In this document: piece after piece, positions 4,937 to 45,347 of the stretch
Layout of the letters: the number at the start of each line of letters is the position of its first letter
Numbering within the stretch: the first letter of the stretch is position 1
From: Alphaproteobacteria bacterium
Lineage (GTDB): Bacteria > Pseudomonadota > Alphaproteobacteria > Rhizobiales > Beijerinckiaceae
DNA: 45,398 nt
Direction of reading: 5' to 3'
Assembly: GCA_016869435.1 (NCBI GenBank)
Contig: VGEB01000013.1
Span: 1-45,398 of the forward strand
Made by a program: the position numbers and the translations under genes
Notes under the pieces: generated by a model
What the model was told of the DNA's origin: nothing
Database searches by the model: none
The model's input: the letters and a program-made list of their open reading frames with translations, nothing else

Positions 4937-6643
4937 ATGACCATCCCGCTTCGCGCCGCCCTTTACCTTCGCGTCTCGACGGCGCGGCAGGCCGAGCATG
5001 ACGTTTCCATCCCCGACCAGCGCCGGCAAGGCGAAGCCTATTGCGCTTCGCGTGGCTATCAGCTTGTCGAAACCTATGTGGAAGCGGGCGCTTCCGCCAC
5101 CAACGACCGCCGGCCCGAGTTCCAGCGCATGATGGAAGCGGGAACCGGAAAACCGGCCGCTTTCGACATTGTAATCGTGCATTCGTTCTCGCGCTTTTTC
5201 CGCGATCATTTCGAACTGGAGTTCTACGTCCGCAAGTTGGCGAAAAACGGCGTCAAACTGGCGTCGATCACCCAGGAGCTCGGCGACGATCCGATGCATG
5301 TCATGATGCGGCAGATCATGACATTGTTCGACGAATACCAGTCGAAGGAAAACGCCAAACACGTTCTGCGGGCGCAGAAGGAGAATGCTCGCCAAGGCTT
5401 CTGGAATGGTTCGCTGCCGCCGATCGGCTATCGCGTCGTCGCGGCCGAGCAGCGCGGCGCGAAGATCAAGAAGAAGCTCGAAATCGATCCGCTCCATGCC
5501 GACACCGTGCGCCTCGCTTTCAGGCTTGCGTTGGAGGGCGATGGAACGTCAGGACCGATGGGCGTCAAATCTATCGTGACCTACCTGAACGCCCGACGCA
5601 TTTTCACGCGCGACGGTGGACGTTGGGGCATCGGGCAAATCCACCGCTTACTGACCCGCCCGACCTATATCGGGCGTCACGAGTTCAACAAGCGCAGCAA
5701 GGCCAAGGTTCTCAAACCCGCGAGCGAAGTCATCGAGGTCGAAACGCCACGGCTGATCGATCAGGCGACCTTCGACGCCGTGCAGGCGCATCTCCGTTCG
5801 CGCAACCCCAAGGTCATGCCCGCCCGCGTTGTCAGTGGGCCGACCCTCCTTACCGGCATTTGCTTCTGTGCAGCCTGCGGCGGGGCCATGACCATCCGCA
5901 CCGGCAAAGGTGCACGCTATCGCTATTACAGTTGCTCGACCGCCGCCCGGCAGGGCGAGACCGGTTGCAGGGGTCGGGCGATTCCCATGGAAAAGCTCGA
6001 CGACCTCGTCGCCGGCCATCTGGAAGACCGCTTGCTTGACCCGGAGCGCCTTTCCGAAATCCTCGCTTCCGTTCTCGACCGTCGTCAGGACCGGGCGGAG
6101 CGTCGCTGTGAACATATTGCAGAACTCAATAGGCGTGCCGCCGAGGCGGACGCCCGTTTGCGGCGTCTTTACGGCGCCATCGAAAGCGGCGTCGCCGACC
6201 TCGACGATCCGGCGCTGAAAGAGCGGATCAAGGAACTCAAGGCGACCCGCGATCAAGCTCGGGCTGACGCCCAGCGCGCGGCCCAAGCAGCGCAGGGATT
6301 CGGCGCGGCCATTACGCCCGCTCATGTCGCCGCCTTCGCGCGGGAGGCTCGCGAACGCATCCGACTTCCCGGCGGCGGCTACCGCCGCGACCTGCTTCGC
6401 GCCCTCGCCCAGCGGGTCGAAGTCGCGGAGCGGGAAGTCCGAATCATGGGATCGAAGGGGAATTTGCTGCGGACTCTCGCCGGCGCAGCAGGCGTAAAAT
6501 CGGCTACCGGCGGTGTGCCCACTCCTGTTCTGAACTGGCGGAAGGGGTGGGATTCGAACCCACGGTGGAGTCGCCCCCACGCCGGTTTTCAAGACCGGTG
6601 CCTTAAACCGCTCGGCCACCCTTCCGCGCCGGACGTGATATAG
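4937..6643 (+). CDS. Large serine recombinase (resolvase/integrase family)
   Basis: The 568-residue protein has a resolvase domain at 1-150: YLRVSTARQ with the nucleophile Ser14, then SRFFRDHFELEFY. A recombinase domain follows at about 170-290 (GYRVVAAEQ, LNARRIFTRDGGRW, PTYIGRHEFNKRSK). A zinc-ribbon comes at about 310-350 (CFCAACGGAM, YYSCS, GCRG), then a coiled coil at about 385-455. Such enzymes integrate or excise phages and elements. The ribosome site GAGAAGG precedes ATG 4937. From about residue 534 the frame reads the antisense strand of the tRNA-Ser gene and stops at 6643, so its last 35 or so residues are target-derived and probably not conserved. It is likely the integrase of the element to its left. 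Confidence 0.9.
   Translation: MTIPLRAALYLRVSTARQAEHDVSIPDQRRQGEAYCASRGYQLVETYVEAGASATNDRRPEFQRMMEAGTGKPAAFDIVIVHSFSRFFRDHFELEFYVRKLAKNGVKLASITQELGDDPMHVMMRQIMTLFDEYQSKENAKHVLRAQKENARQGFWNGSLPPIGYRVVAAEQRGAKIKKKLEIDPLHADTVRLAFRLALEGDGTSGPMGVKSIVTYLNARRIFTRDGGRWGIGQIHRLLTRPTYIGRHEFNKRSKAKVLKPASEVIEVETPRLIDQATFDAVQAHLRSRNPKVMPARVVSGPTLLTGICFCAACGGAMTIRTGKGARYRYYSCSTAARQGETGCRGRAIPMEKLDDLVAGHLEDRLLDPERLSEILASVLDRRQDRAERRCEHIAELNRRAAEADARLRRLYGAIESGVADLDDPALKERIKELKATRDQARADAQRAAQAAQGFGAAITPAHVAAFAREARERIRLPGGGYRRDLLRALAQRVEVAEREVRIMGSKGNLLRTLAGAAGVKSATGGVPTPVLNWRKGWDSNPRWSRPHAGFQDRCLKPLGHPSAPDVI
6536..6625 (-). tRNA. tRNA-Ser, anticodon UGA
   Basis: The minus strand from 6625 reads GGAAGGGTGGCCGAGCGG, a class II tRNA start. 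It continues through an anticodon stem-loop with TGA at 6591-6589, a long variable arm, and a T arm containing GGTTCGAATCC. The acceptor stem closes as GGAAGGG/CCCTTCC, and discriminator G plus CCA are encoded at 6539-6536. The length of 90 nt is normal for tRNA-Ser. Its 3' end faces the recombinase gene, whose reading frame crosses it antisense. Confidence 0.95.
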
Positions 6644-35547: not shown

Positions 35548-37752
35548 ATGACCGCCTCCGCGCAGCAGGCGCGCGTTCCAGATTCGTCGACGCCGCGACG
35601 AAGCTTCGGTCTGTTCGACGCGCTCATGTCGCCGCTCGTGCGTCTGTGGAGGGGCGATCTCAACCTCGGCCGCGTCGGCATGGCCGCCGCATTGCCGGTT
35701 CTCGCCTGGGTCTTCTACACGACCTCCTCCGGCATGATCGACATCATGCAGAAGGAGCCCGGCGACCTGATCGGGATCGCCGGCACGGTGATCGCGACAA
35801 CCGCCGTTCTGACGATGCTCGCGGCGACGTCCTGGTCGCTCGGCGTCGATCTCGCCGCGCTCATCGCACGGCGGCGGATGGCGCGCGAGCGCATGATCAT
35901 CAAGACCGGCGTGACGGCGCTGGTCTTTATTTTCGTCTTCTCGATCTCCGTCTTTTTTTCCTTCACCTTTTACTACAACAACATCTTCAAGCTCTCTTCC
36001 CGCAAGATCGTCGCCGAGCTGCAGCCGATGGAGCTTGCGACTGAAGTGATCCTGCCGGCGACGAAGGAAATCGCCGCCGCTTACGAAGCGGCCTCGTCAC
36101 GCATCGCCGAGACCCCAAGCTACAAGACTTATCTCAATTCGATCGACGGCCTCATCGACACCGCGCGTCAGGCGGGTCCGGCGCTGCGCGACGCCATTCG
36201 AAAGCGGCAGGAGGCGCAACAGGCGGCGATTGCGCAGGCGGCGAGCCAGGCCGCGGCGGAGATGGAGAGCGCCCAAGCGGCGATGCGCCAGCTCGAGGAC
36301 GCCAAACGGGAGATCCTGGCGCTGGAGCGCAGCATCGGCGAACTCGACGTCGTCGTTAAAGCGAAACAGGATGAAATGGCGTCCGCGTCCGCAACGGCGC
36401 GTCAGGAAGAACAGCTCGCAGTCGACGCCGCGCATGGGCTCGACGGATTGGGCGCAGCCTGCGGGCCGAACTGTCGCGGACATCGGGAAAAGGCGGCTGA
36501 AGCGCTGCAACGCGTCACGGCGCTAAAGCAGACGCTCGCCGGCCCGGCGACCGAACGCGCCAACGCCGTGAAGCGGCGCGACGCGCTCAGAGCGCAGACG
36601 ATCACGCTGAAGCAGAAGGCCGAGGCCGCGAGCGCCGCGTCGACGCGGCCGGCGCCAAAGACTGAAGCCGCGCTCGATCTCGACGCCACCGTGCGCGATC
36701 TCGCCGCGTTGCGCGACCAGCTGCGCATGGATCCGAGGTGGCGCACGGTGCGCGAAGCAAAACCCCTGTGCGAACCGATTTTTGCGGCGGCGCGGCAATC
36801 GAACGCCCTGCCGGCAAGCGTTCCGCAGGACTTCGCCTGCGAGCCGCAAGGCGAAGCGCGCGATATGCTCTCGGCGCGCGACGAAACGATCGCCGCTCGC
36901 GCCGCCTTCGACAAGAAATGCGGGCTTGAAAGCGGGCTGCGCGACGAGCTTTCGGCGATCGTCGCCAAGATCCGCGCGGCGCCGCCATCGGACAAGGCGG
37001 CGGCGGCGAACGGCTTCAACGAAGCGAAAACGCTCATCGACGCCTGCGTGGTTTCCGGCAAGGCGGCCGGCCTCTCGGAAGACGAGGTGCGCGAGCTTTT
37101 GAAGAAAAGCGACGCCTATCTGCGCACGCATAGTTCGGAGCGCAACAAATTCGAACTGGCGCGCGAAGCCTTCTGGAGCTTCACGCCCGATTCGACCATG
37201 GCGATCTGCGTCGCCATGGCGCAGGACGCCTTTCTGTTCATCATGAAGTTCCTGTCGGAGATTTTCAAACGCAGCTATGACGCGCGCGAGCGACGCCAGT
37301 TCGCCGCGCCGCTCGATCTTTCCGACGACGAAGACCAGCCGACCGACGTTCGCGCGATGAAAGCGATTATGCGCGCCGCCCGTCCGGTTCACGGCGATAT
37401 GAGCGAGATCGATCCCGATGCGGAAGCAATTTCGCCGCTGCCGCCCAGCGTGCATGACAATGTCCTTGCCATCCTCAATCGGCTCGTGCGCGACGAAATC
37501 GCTCATGTCGACCGCAAAGGCGCGTATCTCGTCGACAATGTCACAATCGCGCAGATCGAAGCGCGGCTCTTCTCGGCGTTGAAGCCGCGCGCCGCCCGCG
37601 CCCTGTATCACGCCGCCGAGGGCGCGGCCCATGGACCGCGCGCCTATTATTCCGACGCGGAGGCGGCGCATCTTCCGCGGCGACGCTGCGGCGCGCTCGA
37701 GCGCTATCTCATCGCCGAACCGGCGCAAATGGACAGGCGTCCATCAACGTAG
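35548..37752 (+). CDS. Large membrane protein with periplasmic coiled coil, unknown function
   Basis: This is a 734-residue protein I do not recognise. Three membrane segments lie near residues 45-65, 77-105 and 118-148. A long Ala/Glu/Lys/Arg-rich coiled coil follows at about 215-380 (RQLEDAKREILALERSIGEL). A cysteine-rich part runs from about 305 to 510 (CGPNCRGH, KPLCEP, DFACEP, KKCGLES), with a probable fourth membrane segment at about 550-573 (CVAMAQDAFLFIMKFL). The C-terminal 160 residues look soluble and end in a helix-rich part (LPPSVHDNVLAILNRLVRDE). The pattern suggests a periplasmic sensor or spacer joined to a cytoplasmic output. It converges on the next gene with a 2-bp gap. Confidence 0.8.
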   Translation: MTASAQQARVPDSSTPRRSFGLFDALMSPLVRLWRGDLNLGRVGMAAALPVLAWVFYTTSSGMIDIMQKEPGDLIGIAGTVIATTAVLTMLAATSWSLGVDLAALIARRRMARERMIIKTGVTALVFIFVFSISVFFSFTFYYNNIFKLSSRKIVAELQPMELATEVILPATKEIAAAYEAASSRIAETPSYKTYLNSIDGLIDTARQAGPALRDAIRKRQEAQQAAIAQAASQAAAEMESAQAAMRQLEDAKREILALERSIGELDVVVKAKQDEMASASATARQEEQLAVDAAHGLDGLGAACGPNCRGHREKAAEALQRVTALKQTLAGPATERANAVKRRDALRAQTITLKQKAEAASAASTRPAPKTEAALDLDATVRDLAALRDQLRMDPRWRTVREAKPLCEPIFAAARQSNALPASVPQDFACEPQGEARDMLSARDETIAARAAFDKKCGLESGLRDELSAIVAKIRAAPPSDKAAAANGFNEAKTLIDACVVSGKAAGLSEDEVRELLKKSDAYLRTHSSERNKFELAREAFWSFTPDSTMAICVAMAQDAFLFIMKFLSEIFKRSYDARERRQFAAPLDLSDDEDQPTDVRAMKAIMRAARPVHGDMSEIDPDAEAISPLPPSVHDNVLAILNRLVRDEIAHVDRKGAYLVDNVTIAQIEARLFSALKPRAARALYHAAEGAAHGPRAYYSDAEAAHLPRRRCGALERYLIAEPAQMDRRPST

Positions 37753-37754
37753 CG

Positions 37755-38573
37755 TCAGGCGGCGACGGAGCTCCGGGCCGCCGCTCCCAGCGATGGCAGA
37801 TAACGCAAGCACAGGCCCTGCGGCTCATGACGCAGGCCGGCGACGACGCTGATCTCGCGCCAGCGCGGATAGCTCGCCGGCAAAAATTGCAGCGCCAGGC
37901 CGACGGCCCTCAGAAACGCCGCCTCGCTTGCGAAGTCGTCGGCGCCGAAGGTCAGCGTCGCGTCTTCGCCGGTTTCGGCGCCGCGCGCCAGAAATTCGAG
38001 AACGGGCGGCGCCCAACGCGTCTTTTCCAAGGCGTCCTCCAGCGCGCTCCAGACCTCCTGGCGGTCAAGCAGACGCACGATGTATCGCGCCGGCTCGGCG
38101 CTGAAGCGCACGCTCTCGTCGTCGCTCGCCAAGTCCGGAAACGCCTCAAGCTCGGCGCCCGCCATGGCCAGCAAGGCGGCCGGATGTCGGCGCCAATCGG
38201 CCGTGGTCACGCTCCATACGGCGCTCTGCTGATAGAGGCGCCCGTGGCCGTCTTCACCGTCTTCGGGCCGAAACCGCGCGCGCAGAAAAATGGCGCGGCG
38301 CGAATTGGGCTCAGGCGAAACGCGCGCGAGAAACGAGCCGCGCTGGCGCGCCCCAGGATCGACGAGATCGGGTTCGAAGCGGCGCAGCGCCATGAGCCGG
38401 GGCGGCGAGAGCAGCCGGTCGTCGGATGAGCGCAGATTGTGGCTGCGCAAGGTGACGCCATAACCTTGGCAGGCAGGAACGCTCAAAGCCGCGCCGGAGG
38501 CGAGCTTTCCATAATGCAGCCGTTCGAGAGAAATTTCGGCCGTCTGATCGTCGACCGGCGCAGTCTGGCGCAT
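37755..38573 (-). CDS. Unknown protein, possibly a GTPase-associated (GAP1-like) component
   Basis: The 272-residue protein starts at the ATG at 38573, where GGAAGGA lies 6 bases upstream; a longer frame to 38636 lacks such a site. It has no membrane segment. Features are ISLERLHYGKLASG and GYGVTLRSHNLRSSDDRLL near the start, then FLARVSPEP, GRLYQQSAVWSVTTADW and a helical second half. The opening recalls the N-terminal domain of GTPase-associated proteins in bacterial conflict systems. That likeness is from memory, weak and unverified. The gene faces the membrane coiled-coil gene tail to tail. It is co-directional with the GTPase-like gene at 40494, from which the restriction-modification pair separates it. 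Confidence 0.7.
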   Translation of the reverse strand: MRQTAPVDDQTAEISLERLHYGKLASGAALSVPACQGYGVTLRSHNLRSSDDRLLSPPRLMALRRFEPDLVDPGARQRGSFLARVSPEPNSRRAIFLRARFRPEDGEDGHGRLYQQSAVWSVTTADWRRHPAALLAMAGAELEAFPDLASDDESVRFSAEPARYIVRLLDRQEVWSALEDALEKTRWAPPVLEFLARGAETGEDATLTFGADDFASEAAFLRAVGLALQFLPASYPRWREISVVAGLRHEPQGLCLRYLPSLGAAARSSVAA

Positions 38574-38679
38574 CGTTGATCCTTCCCGCGCGCGACATTT
38601 CACGCGCGTCGACCATAGGCATCGCGGCTTAAGCAAGGATTGACGTGCGGAAGATTAATCCAGCGGCAAAGAACGGCTG

Positions 38680-38705
38680 TTGACGTCTAGACGTCTTTGT
38701 ATACC
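38680..38705 (+). promoter_or_regulatory. Promoter of the methyltransferase gene with a 14-bp palindrome
   Basis: TTGACG (38680-38685) and TATACC (38700-38705) are spaced by 14 bp. The perfect palindrome GACGTCTAGACGTC (38682-38695) overlaps the -35 box and fills most of the spacer. The methyltransferase begins with a winged-helix-like domain, so self-repression through this site is likely. A ribosome site AAGGAGG follows at 38722-38728. Confidence 0.6.
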
Positions 38706-38733
38706 ATCGCCGCCGTCAACGAAGGAGGCGACG

Positions 38734-39843
38734 GTGTACGAACGCGGAGCGATCAGAGACGCCGTCATCGATTGTCTGCGCGACGTGGGCTGCGAGGCGC
38801 CGCTGGACGAAATCGTCATAGCGGTGACTGCGCGGCTCGGCGCTGTCCCTCAATCTTCCGTGCGGTCCTACCTCAACCTCAATACGCCCTCGCTTTTTGA
38901 ACGAACAGGTCGAGGCCGTTACCGGCTGCGCGGCGTAGCCGCAATCGATTACGCAAATATAGAATCAAGCGCACAAATCGATCGTGCGAAACTTTACCGC
39001 GCCGACGCATTCAACTGGCTCGCCTCGCAACCGCCAAAGTCGATCCACGCCGTCGTGACCGATCCGCCTTACGGGATTGTGGAATATAGCGCCAAGGAGA
39101 AGGCAAAGCTTCGCGAAGGAAGAGGCGGCGTCTGGCGAATCCCGCCATCCTTCGACGGACACAAACGAGCGCCGCTCCCACGATTCACTGTTCTGTCCCG
39201 TGACGATCACAAGGCGCTCGCCTCGTTCTTTCGACGACTCGGAACGCTCCTCCTTCGCACATGCGTTCCGGGAGCGAATGTCATTGTGGCGTCCAATCCG
39301 CTGCTTTCGCATATCGTCGCGAGCGCCATGAGCGAGACTGGACTGGAGTTGCGAGGCTACATCGCGCGGCAAGTGATGACGATGCGCGGCGGCGATCGGC
39401 CCAAGAACGCCCATGAGGAATTCGAGGGGGTGAGCGTCATGCCGAGATCGCAATGGGAGCCATGGGTCGTTTTGCGGGCGCCTCTCGAAGGTCGCGTGCA
39501 GGACAATCTGCGCCGTTATGGCGTCGGCGGCTTCCGACGCCTTTCAACGGACAAGCCATTTGGCGACGTGATCCGTTCCCATCCAACTCCCGCGAAAGAG
39601 AAGAAAATCGCGCCGCATCCAAGCCTAAAGCCGCAGGCCTTCATGCGCTCGATCGTGCGCGCGTCTCTCCCGCTTGAGTCAGGAATTGTATGCGATCCCT
39701 TTGCGGGCGCCGGCGCGACGCTCGCCGCCGCGAACGCCGTCGGCTATGCGTCTGTCGGCGTGGAAATAGATCACGACTATTACGATCTTGCGCTCGCAAG
39801 CGTGCCGCGTCTCGCCGCTCTTAAAGTCGAACAGGAGAATTAG
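38734..39843 (+). CDS. DNA methyltransferase of a type II restriction-modification system, with N-terminal winged-helix domain
   Basis: The 369-residue protein starts with GTG at 38734, five bases after GAAGGAGG. Residues 1-70 look like a winged helix (AIRDAVIDCLRDVGCEAPLDEI, SSVRSYLNLNTPSLFERTGRGRYRL). The catalytic DPPY (110-113) precedes the SAM-binding FAGAG (323-327), the order of beta-class N6-adenine or N4-cytosine methylases. It should protect the host from the endonuclease encoded convergently; the two coding ends overlap by 4 bp. The palindrome at its promoter suggests autoregulation. GC content is lower than in flanking core genes, which fits transfer. Confidence 0.9.
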   Translation: MYERGAIRDAVIDCLRDVGCEAPLDEIVIAVTARLGAVPQSSVRSYLNLNTPSLFERTGRGRYRLRGVAAIDYANIESSAQIDRAKLYRADAFNWLASQPPKSIHAVVTDPPYGIVEYSAKEKAKLREGRGGVWRIPPSFDGHKRAPLPRFTVLSRDDHKALASFFRRLGTLLLRTCVPGANVIVASNPLLSHIVASAMSETGLELRGYIARQVMTMRGGDRPKNAHEEFEGVSVMPRSQWEPWVVLRAPLEGRVQDNLRRYGVGGFRRLSTDKPFGDVIRSHPTPAKEKKIAPHPSLKPQAFMRSIVRASLPLESGIVCDPFAGAGATLAAANAVGYASVGVEIDHDYYDLALASVPRLAALKVEQEN

Positions 39844-40451
39844 GATTTGCCAATCCTATAGATCACGCCAGCTCTCAATTTCTTGAGGCCGTCACGATGC
39901 AATGTCGCCGTGTCGGTGCCGAGATCGCCGCGCTTGTTGCGCCGAAAATCCGTTTCTTCGACCTTCGCCAGATAAATCTCGATGAACCGCATTGGCTCCC
40001 GAGCGGAGGCAGGCTCCGTCGTCACATCGACCTCGTAGACAAATACGCACATCCACTGATTGCGCGCCCCATGCGTATCGACGGCTCCGCCACGCTTGGT
40101 CGTGCTCTTGATTTCTACGCCTTCTTCGCCAGCAGCGACGGCGTCGCCAGGATATTTTCTCCGCAACACCAGATCGGGATGCCCATTATGACGAGCATTC
40201 TCGACAAGAGATCGCGAAAAACGCGCGAGCGATGCGGTCATCATGTCTGAGATAATGCCCGACAACGCCTGCGGGCGCAGCATGTCATCCAGACGTTTCA
40301 GGCCCTTATCCAGCAACAGTTGATTCACGTCATAAAAGACGTCGTAAATATCCTCCATCGCATGTTCGAAATCGGACTGTCGAAGAGAAAACAGGTAAGT
40401 GGCTTGCGGATTAAACGCAGCTCGATTGATCAAGGCCTTCTTGAGACTCAC
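39840..40451 (-). CDS. Type II restriction endonuclease, PD-(D/E)XK fold
   Basis: The 203-residue protein carries HPDLVLRRK (Asp93) and, 20 residues on, GVEIKST (Glu113, Lys115), the PD-(D/E)XK nuclease core, followed by NQWMCVFVYEVD. It stands next to a DNA methyltransferase, so a restriction role is likely; I cannot predict the recognition site. The GTG at 40451 has GGGAG six bases upstream. It begins 42 bp after the GTPase-like gene, so transcription may come from there. GC content is below that of the neighbours. Confidence 0.8.
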   Translation of the reverse strand: MSLKKALINRAAFNPQATYLFSLRQSDFEHAMEDIYDVFYDVNQLLLDKGLKRLDDMLRPQALSGIISDMMTASLARFSRSLVENARHNGHPDLVLRRKYPGDAVAAGEEGVEIKSTTKRGGAVDTHGARNQWMCVFVYEVDVTTEPASAREPMRFIEIYLAKVEETDFRRNKRGDLGTDTATLHRDGLKKLRAGVIYRIGKS

Positions 40452-40492
40452 GTCTCGCTCCCGCCAAAACGAATTTCAGATTTTTTTGCCAT
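40448..40492 (-). CDS. 14-codon reading frame linking the GTPase-like and endonuclease genes
   Basis: One base after the TGA of the GTPase-like gene an ATG (40492) opens MAKKSEIRFGGSET. Its TGA overlaps the GTG start of the endonuclease (GTGA). It has no ribosome site of its own, so it would rely on re-initiation. It may be a coupling leader, the N-terminal stub of a gene replaced by the restriction-modification module, or chance. Confidence 0.3.
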   Translation of the reverse strand: MAKKSEIRFGGSET

Positions 40493-40493
40493 T

Positions 40494-41474
40494 TCACGCG
40501 ATCTCCTCGACGCGCGCGTCGAGCTGCGCATAGGAGAAGGTGAAGGCGCTATCGAGTCCGAGCGCGGCGTAAAGAAAGGGCTCGGCCGTGAGAAACGGGC
40601 GCCAATATTCGTTGTAGGCGCGGGCGCCGTCGAGCCCGGCGCGTCGAAACCGACGCTCGCCGGGCTGATGCGGGTCAATGTTCGGGTTCTGAAAGCGCTT
40701 GACGAAGCCATAGGCCGAAGAAACCGTGAAGCGCACTGACGCACCGCCGCCCCCGGGCGTCTCCAGCGCGCGCAATCGATCCAGCCATTGCACGGCGCGC
40801 AGCGATTTGCGCAACACATGCAGCGCGACCGCGGGATCGCAGGCGTAGGTGAAGGCGCTCGGCCCGAGTCGCGCGAACAATCGCTCATATTGCGAGAAGA
40901 CGACGACGAGCCGCTTCAGCTTCTTCTCTGGCGCGAGCGCCAGCCGGTCGATCAGCCGCGAAAGATTGCCGGACCAGCCTGAATCCTCCAGCCGCACCAG
41001 CGGCAGAACGATCACGATCGCCTCGGCGTCGAGCATTTGCCTCGCCAGCTTCGCCTTGACGTCATTCAAGATCGCTACTTCGGCGCCGTCCGGCGGCACG
41101 GCGATCTCGCCCGCCGAATCGACGATCTCCAGCAGCCAGGGTCCGCGCAACACGACCGCCGGCGGCGCCTCGCCGTTTACCGTCAGGCGGAAGCGATATT
41201 CATAAGTGTCGAGCGTGTCGGTGGCGACGCCGCCCTCGGTAAAGTCCCGCCGCAGCCGCTCGTAGTCGCCCTGTTCGACCGTCAGCAGATCGGCCTTCTT
41301 TGGCTCGATGCCGTCGGCGTAGAATTCCGCGTCGGTAACGGGTTGCAGCGCCGGCCGCAGGCGCGGCGAATAGCCGAAGGCGCTTTGCGCGACGCAGTCG
41401 ACGAGCGATGCGAGCAGCGACGACTTGCCGCCCTTCTTCGGGCCGATGAGACAGATCGACAGTCTTTCGGTCAT
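40494..41474 (-). CDS. P-loop GTPase-like protein of unknown function (TRAFAC-like, degenerate)
   Basis: The 326-residue soluble protein starts with a Walker A loop GPKKGGKS (residues 11-18) directly after a hydrophobic strand (LSICLI). The G3-like DSAGE (119-123, DxxG form) follows the strand WLLEIV. A possible switch threonine lies at about 85-90. At the position of NKxD it has VVVFSQYERLF (190-200), so base specificity is unclear. Its C-terminal half is helical (FRRAGLDGARAYNEYWRPFL). The annotation as TRAFAC-type is from motif pattern only. It is co-directional with the 272-aa unknown gene and divergent from prmA; I suspect the three unknown genes act together. Confidence 0.8.
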   Translation of the reverse strand: MTERLSICLIGPKKGGKSSLLASLVDCVAQSAFGYSPRLRPALQPVTDAEFYADGIEPKKADLLTVEQGDYERLRRDFTEGGVATDTLDTYEYRFRLTVNGEAPPAVVLRGPWLLEIVDSAGEIAVPPDGAEVAILNDVKAKLARQMLDAEAIVIVLPLVRLEDSGWSGNLSRLIDRLALAPEKKLKRLVVVFSQYERLFARLGPSAFTYACDPAVALHVLRKSLRAVQWLDRLRALETPGGGGASVRFTVSSAYGFVKRFQNPNIDPHQPGERRFRRAGLDGARAYNEYWRPFLTAEPFLYAALGLDSAFTFSYAQLDARVEEIA

Positions 41475-44513: not shown

Positions 44514-45347
44514 TTGCTTTCATTTGAGCACCTGCTCCTCAACAGAGAGGCCGGCATCGCCGCGGAACTCATTGCGAGTGGTGTGACTTTGCTTGGACGA
44601 GCAAATTACGCTCACACGGGGCTGTACGGACAGGCTTTCTTCAATCTTTCTATAGGCTTTGAGCGAACAGCCAAACTGATCTACATCGCTGATTACGCGA
44701 TCCAACACTCTGGAGCTTATCCGTCGAACGACGAGCTCAAGACGAAATTCAGCCATGACGTGAAGCAGCTTTTTGATCATGCGGAGAAGATTTCGGACCG
44801 CTTGCGTACCGGCAAGAAATTTTGCGATCGCCCGAACACTGATATCCATTGCGCGATCGTGCAGGTGCTGAGCGAATTCGCAAAGCGAACACGGTTTTAC
44901 AATCTTGACACGGTGATGGGGTCGGTTTCAGCTCGGTCATCTGATCCCTTGTACGCGTGGAACGAGCGGGTGGTTGCACTTATCATAAAGAAGCACCTCA
45001 CCTTGAAAAAAAGGGAAAGGATTGAAAGAAGTGCTGCGCTGATTGACCATTTACTCCGCGACAAAGCTTTAGTTTCGATGACGGATGAAACCGGAGCAGC
45101 GATGAACACCGTTTATTTGGCATCACGGCGAACTGGTGAAACAGATGTCGCAAGAAAGTGGGCTCCGCTTTATGTACTGCAGTTAGCCCGGTGGCTTACT
45201 TACTTGCTCTATGACTTGTCGCATGAGGGAGCGTATACTTATCAAATAGATGGGCTGCTCGGCTTGAGCGAGGGGATGTCCCGCTTGATGTTGAAAAGCG
45301 GAAATCGGCGTTGCTGGCCTGAATGCTATGCGGCTTTCGCGGTTTGA
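44514..45347 (+). CDS. HEPN-like protein of unknown function, AT-richer than its surroundings
   Basis: The 277-residue frame opens with a TTG at 44514, immediately after the aminopeptidase stop; the next possible starts are internal, so the true start is uncertain. Residues 30-85 (LYGQAFFNLSIGFERTAKLI, then YPSNDELKTKFSHDVKQLF) resemble the helical opening of HEPN-type proteins, many of which are RNases or parts of defence systems. No clear R-x4-6-H pair is seen. The coding region is visibly AT-richer than the core genes, pointing to transfer. Confidence 0.65.
   Translation: MLSFEHLLLNREAGIAAELIASGVTLLGRANYAHTGLYGQAFFNLSIGFERTAKLIYIADYAIQHSGAYPSNDELKTKFSHDVKQLFDHAEKISDRLRTGKKFCDRPNTDIHCAIVQVLSEFAKRTRFYNLDTVMGSVSARSSDPLYAWNERVVALIIKKHLTLKKRERIERSAALIDHLLRDKALVSMTDETGAAMNTVYLASRRTGETDVARKWAPLYVLQLARWLTYLLYDLSHEGAYTYQIDGLLGLSEGMSRLMLKSGNRRCWPECYAAFAV

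Follow-up and report, generated by a model that had tools for sequence, protein, structure and literature searches.

The 45,398-nucleotide contig VGEB01000013.1 (assembly GCA_016869435.1, an alphaproteobacterium of the Beijerinckiaceae), referred to here as the window, raises the question of whether three neighbouring genes of no recognised family act together and, if so, in what process. The earlier note, made from the letters alone, had grouped them as a sensing or defence device consisting of gene D, encoding a 734-aa membrane coiled-coil protein, gene C, encoding a 272-aa protein, and gene B, encoding a 326-aa P-loop protein. The three open reading frames (ORFs) are present as described, and no convincing family was found for their products in Pfam, NCBIfam or PADLOC; B and C run in the same direction, while C and D lie tail to tail. 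We infer, with a probability of about one half, that B, C and D, together with a gene A located elsewhere in the genome, constitute a switch-and-membrane module belonging to an envelope machine, because their linkage persists beyond local synteny and because the full islands of other lineages carry, among the further genes lettered E to I, candidates for wall synthesis (H and I) and a weakly Hsp70-like protein (E). Loci and genomes compared bear L- and G-numbers, G000 being the window's own genome; g1 denotes its genus, g109 another genus and f60 another family.

Searching GTDB species genomes with B brought up 28 further loci, at identities of 55-94%, the nearest copies (93-94%) being those of Methylocystis, the methane-oxidising genus to which the window belongs. 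In 20 of these loci C follows closely downstream of B, and 22 contain D; both counts are lower bounds, since some of the loci are short contigs. C was recovered at 46-62% identity from four further genomes of the genus, and among 119 genomes of the family it was found in five g1 genomes and in no others. In the window, B and C are separated by a restriction-modification (R-M) pair, a methyltransferase gene matching PF01555 in Pfam (2.3e-16) and a probable restriction enzyme gene matching REase_II in PADLOC (3.6e-4). Such genes are interposed in only two of the 28 loci, L052 (both genes) and L061 (the methyltransferase alone), and because these are the only ones among the 20 loci with C after B, the pair is an insertion outside the system, as its omission from the original grouping implied.

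The trio is surrounded by core genes, of which prmA and a Radical_SAM gene, presumably HpnH-like, were named by Pfam and others are presumably a squalene-hopene cyclase (shc) and a pepP-like aminopeptidase. Four loci without prmA, hpnH or shc as neighbours still keep partners of B: Methylosinus sp. Ce-a6 (L072) and the metagenome-assembled genome (MAG) FeB_33 (L073) have A-B-D, Methylosinus sp. Sm6 (L076) has A-B, and the MAG palsa_894 (L075) has A-B-C, behind which come E, F, G and, where the locus ends, the beginning of H. Within f60, genomes G396 and G866 hold nine genes in identical order, E-F-G-H-I-D, then A, then B-C, and G818 holds B, F, G, H and a gene resembling A in a locus reaching almost to the end of its contig. 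In g109, an A-like gene (Y) stands together with E, G, H and I, and a relative of B that lacks the P-loop and matches on its own at 2.4e-8 is divergent to Y. At L090 this relative occupies positions 5279-6079 of the minus strand, divergent to the A-type gene of the island, and would represent the same switch in pseudo-GTPase form.

Profile comparison joined the families across lineages for B (B1-B4 99.8%, B1-B2 99.5%), D (D1-D3 99.2%, D4-D3 94.8%) and E (E1-E3 100%), and joined C of f60 to that of Methylocystis (C1-C3 93.7% over 137 columns; about 5e-6 by hmmsearch). The alignments of B designated A3 and A9 excluded L067, L076 and near-duplicates. B is rare, occurring in 6 of 199 genomes of the order, in 3 of 198 of f60 and, at E 1e-5 with only six candidates per genome scored, in 2 of 337 of the class. 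With its linkage kept outside the local synteny, the trio is a conserved unit and not a set of chance neighbours; homologues scattered without co-occurrence, named beforehand as the outcome that would speak against the grouping, were not the rule, the lineage g37 and genome G281 being exceptions. The claim of a three-gene system survives in that the trio is linked, but the unit is larger, with A in all lineages that have the island and E, F, G, H and I in full islands.

The proteins of the full islands suggest what such a unit may serve. H is a predicted PBP2-like transpeptidase with intact motifs: it matches the penicillin-binding protein (PBP) transpeptidase domain at 4.9e-13, 4e-7 and 1.2e-11 (over the Pfam cut-off in L108, L126 and L090) and PBP2/MrdA at 2.3e-10, and the transpeptidase motifs SxxK, SxN and KTG are readable in all four H proteins. 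I appears to be a relative of the shape, elongation, division and sporulation (SEDS) proteins FtsW and RodA; its f60 members are joined to those of g109 by the I profile (3e-62), and GFQPVE-like and GLLPVMGQPMT stretches, which we take to be SEDS signatures, are present in every row of the alignment. E resembles Hsp70-like ATPases weakly, and in a PDB sequence search all seven sequences listed at E values up to 1 are Hsp70s (0.19-0.45). H and I, encoded side by side, recall the RodA-PBP2 and FtsW-FtsI synthases, from which they differ in their strong divergence, in long extra regions and in having as gene neighbours a GTPase-type protein and an ATPase weakly similar to Hsp70; neither gene was found in the window.

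The description of B as a degenerate GTPase with GPKKGGKS and DSAGE but no NKxD was borne out, both by alignment and by profile. The alignment places SQYE at the G4 position of the window's B, where other lineages have TKYE (g37), TKTE (G818) or TKID (G866), and B is therefore a GTPase-type protein whose G4 motif decayed in Methylocystis. Its profiles were compared with the DO-GTPase set, made up of the GTPase encoded immediately upstream of GAP1 in canonical GAP1-N1 systems, with an ABC-ATPase as control. The f60 family (B4) gave 97.8% over 250 columns (control, 61.8% over 17) and all B proteins together gave 96.2% over 206 columns (control, 88.5% over 67), while the window's own family, at 93.6% over 174 columns, stood modestly above its control (86.9% over 61). 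On these scores homology to DO-GTPases is good through the family as a whole and modest for the window's branch alone. The Pfam DO-GTPase2 model matched B of L107 at 0.012 and of L028 at 0.059 and did not match that of the window, and a PDB sequence search with B returned no match. Each locus carries one B and the window's genome yields one B match, so that a paralogous GTPase pair was not encountered.

Hydropathy of D places spans at about residues 38-64, 71-107 and 114-146 near the N-terminus and a fourth at 548-573, in keeping with the four that had been claimed. As for the cysteine-rich coiled coil attributed to it, heptad-like periodicity is found in residues 165-300 (reached by 2 of 500 shuffles), while residues 310-395 and 395-460 are not outstanding. 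Six of its eight cysteines are invariant in all 14 aligned Methylocystaceae sequences, and residues 408, 431, 458 and 500 have aligned counterparts in cysteines 530, 552, 578 and 600 of a D relative outside the family; this conserved quartet may form two disulfides. The positive-inside pattern points weakly to a periplasmic location of the long region, since the N-terminus and the loop between spans 2 and 3 have five K/R each while only five K/R, against eight D/E, follow span 4. All three D relatives scanned, from other families, matched DUF4407 (PF14362) below its cut-off (20.4-25.4 bits against 31.3), whereas the window's D had no DUF4407 match in Pfam; we know of no function for DUF4407. 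Relatives of D also occur without B. Among them are proteins of about 1100 aa at L036 and L039, in another family, whose neighbours we take to be a Zur/ZnuC/ZnuB-like (zinc-uptake-like) operon and an ispG-like gene.

The identity of C bears on two alternative readings. Its conserved stretches are YGKL and RPEDGExGxGR, and although a TTG-initiated ORF extends to position 38636, its relatives start at or near the ATG that gives 272 aa. In the MAG palsa_894 (L075:11209-13017) C has 602 aa, with an extra C-terminal half absent from the Methylocystis proteins. An AlphaFold2 model built from 18 sequences reached a predicted local distance difference test score (pLDDT) of 88.4 and a predicted template-modelling score (pTM) of 0.87. 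In Foldseek its top match, and the sole PDB structure at E 0.001 or better, was Acinetobacter baylyi TagF (9t0n; probability 1.00, E 9.4e-5), with which C also has in common a short YGKL stretch near the N-terminus. This raises the rather unlikely alternative that C is a TagF-type regulator and that B and C control a complex through an FHA-like partner, much as TagF represses type VI secretion by binding Fha; binding of Fha by TagF is reported in PMC5995506, and one of the four I proteins has an FHA_2 match, at a sub-threshold 0.0027. The superposition is loose, however (template-modelling scores of 0.41 and 0.36, root-mean-square deviation 7.1), and Pseudomonas aeruginosa TagF (6iz8) came only at rank 21 with a probability of 0.12. 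Profile comparison of C with ten TagF sequences (hhalign) gave 0.4%, the TagF_N model of Pfam (PF09867) matched neither C nor anything else in G000, and C, unlike TagF, pairs with a GTPase-type protein. A PDB sequence search with C had 0.24 as its best value, and a viral structure library gave nothing at E 0.001.

C had also been said to recall weakly the N-terminal domain of GTPase-associated conflict systems, and the trio to make a sensing or defence device. In a divergent conflict (defence) system, B would be a DO-GTPase-type switch, C a GAP1-like adaptor and D a membrane effector or sensor. Part of the comparison stands. B is related by profile to DO-GTPases, and C lies directly behind B as GAP1 does behind its GTPase (loci L098-L103, and PMC7159879). 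DO-GTPases, GAP1 and GASH are defined in PMC7159879, as is the Hsp70 theme, and some of the DO-GTPase systems treated there include Hsp70 or membrane components; PMC11237479 places DO-GTPases near psp operons and links them to membrane stress. Sequence similarity, on the other hand, is lacking: C against GAP1-N1 gave 0.1% in hhalign, and no GAP1-N model of Pfam matched it. C and GAP1-N1 look alike by eye and in predicted strand and helix order, a likeness that stays a lead since the GAP1-N1 model, from two sequences, had a pLDDT of 36.1; GAP1-N as the identity of C was set aside for want of profile support. GAP1-N1 was found in one of 240 genomes of the class and GAP1-N2 in none of 200 of the phylum.

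In other respects, too, the unit departs from the known systems. There is a single GTPase and not a pair, no zinc ribbon was seen, and full islands hold an intact-looking transpeptidase and a SEDS relative where the known systems have variable effectors; the words FtsW, RodA and TagF are absent from the main text of PMC7159879. General Pfam scans of the island proteins, run with no dedicated profile, showed no GASH/FNIII partner. PADLOC gave nothing for B or C, only JetC at 0.21 for D, and 0.0024 at best for the island proteins. Because no match there has weight, and because the chromosomal site is stable and B is 92-94% identical in most Methylocystis loci, similar to its housekeeping neighbours HpnH, PrmA and SHC, a defence role is less likely, and the divergent conflict system in particular is improbable. 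As a separate observation, GAP1-N1 genes with two P-loop genes upstream were met at L121 and L122 on contigs classed as viral, and genes similar to them on 27 plasmid records, 21 predicted to be conjugative; GAP1-N1 conflict systems thus travel.

The weakest alternative, that three independent genes merely share a conserved stretch of the Methylocystis chromosome, draws on prmA, pepP, hpnH and shc flanking the trio about as regularly as each other and on g37 keeping B and D apart, but it is largely refuted, and quite unlikely, since A-B-D, A-B and A-B-C-E-F-G-H also stand together where those neighbours are absent, and two genomes of another family carry A-B-C-D.

Several observations weigh against an envelope module. 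With prmA in 24 of the 28 loci, more than either C or D, much of the linkage within Methylocystis is shared synteny. C is missing beside B in eight loci (L067-L073 and L076), B stands without A, C or D at L067 and L068, and in G281 C and D are adjacent with no B within the 20 kb examined. In g37, B lies beside a different large gene (A2) in 5/5 loci and D beside E in 6/6, B and D thus lying apart, and C did not turn up in the genomes of this lineage. Among 99 genomes of the family, E was detected in three (two of g109 and, as a weak match with stops, G287) and in none of the four g1 genomes, the window's included. Of the wall-synthesis assignments, that of I has an FTSW_RODA_SPOVE match in two of four members (best 6e-6), those of f60 being unmatched on their own, and no match in the PDB, and E matches HSP70 below the Pfam cut-off (0.0035 and 0.2).

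Gene A adds a further difficulty, in that the A families of different lineages are unlike (A1-A2 0.3%, A1-A3 0.3%). A single A family was rejected, there being no profile similarity between lineages; A1, A2, A3, A4 and Y have in common a place next to B, in most cases in divergent orientation, and an N-terminal stretch rich in W and D, noted by eye. In G000, A is split over the ends of two contigs, C56 and C9 (query residues 1-403 and 406-673). It was found in all four g1 genomes sampled (G000, G213, G250 and G281) and in 0/95 of the other genomes of the family.

Features of the window, with positions counted from its first nucleotide
Feature	Coordinates	Strand	Basis
Gene D, coiled-coil protein of the inner membrane, 734 aa, with weak DUF4407 likeness through relatives	35548..37752	+	ORF, profiles, hydropathy
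D, three N-terminal hydrophobic spans, residues 38-146	35659..35985	+	hydropathy
D, coiled-coil-like periodicity, residues 165-300	36040..36447	+	2/500 shuffles
D, C-terminal hydrophobic span, residues 548-573	37189..37266	+	hydropathy
Gene C, 272-aa soluble protein	37755..38573	-	ORF from ATG; predicted fold pLDDT 88.4; best PDB match TagF
DNA methyltransferase of inserted R-M pair, outside the system	38680..39843	+	PF01555
Probable type II restriction enzyme of inserted R-M pair, outside the system	39840..40451	-	PADLOC REase_II
Gene B, P-loop GTPase-type protein, DO-GTPase relative	40494..41474	-	motifs, profile comparison
B, G1/Walker A GPKKGGKS, residues 11-18	41421..41444	-	alignment
B, G3/Walker B DSAGE, residues 119-123	41106..41120	-	alignment
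B, G4 position SQYE, residues 194-197	40884..40895	-	alignment
B, conserved SAYGF, residues 253-257, putatively G5	40704..40718	-	alignment

Two features of the surroundings were noted. A palindrome of the GACGTCTAGACGTC type lies beside the methyltransferase gene in the window (38574-38700), in L052 and in L061, and may serve the R-M pair as an operator or recognition site. The pepP-like gene is followed immediately by a 277-aa ORF (44514-45347, plus strand) that has no match in Pfam or NCBIfam.

The data presented above have led us to propose how the envelope module might work. B would bind, and perhaps hydrolyse, GTP or another nucleotide and change shape, and C, placed directly downstream, would bind B as its effector or regulator, in the manner proposed for GAP1 and DO-GTPases. 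D, a presumably cysteine-stabilised coiled coil between membrane spans, would anchor the switch and read or transmit the state of the envelope. In the full islands H and I would deliver the output, wall synthesis; since E is missing from Methylocystis, the module there would act on the ordinary wall machinery or on H and I copies of its own.

A bolder version, which we regard as less likely than not, is that the trio controls an additional wall machine of Alphaproteobacteria, as yet undescribed and built on a SEDS protein and a class B PBP (bPBP). B would be its DO-GTPase-like switch, C a TagF- or GAP1-N-like partner, D a cysteine-rich transmembrane coiled coil and E an Hsp70-like ATPase, and together these four would do the job that falls to MreB or FtsZ and their partners in the elongasome and divisome; Methylocystis would have retained the switch while losing E at the least, and g109 would have lost the P-loop of B. 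No description of the gene set was found in a literature search by titles and abstract openings, a scope that mostly excludes subscription journals and preprints.

Accounts of bacterial wall synthesis centre on SEDS-bPBP pairs under the control of scaffolds built on MreB or FtsZ. A recurrent island in which such a pair is joined to a GTPase-type switch akin to those of conflict systems, and to an Hsp70-like ATPase, would amount to a third mode of control and would link wall biology with GTPase-centric conflict systems. Were the bolder version true, C, TagF and GAP1-N would form one superfamily of GTPase or FHA partners. A, B, C and D, four families without an assigned function, are now given a testable setting.

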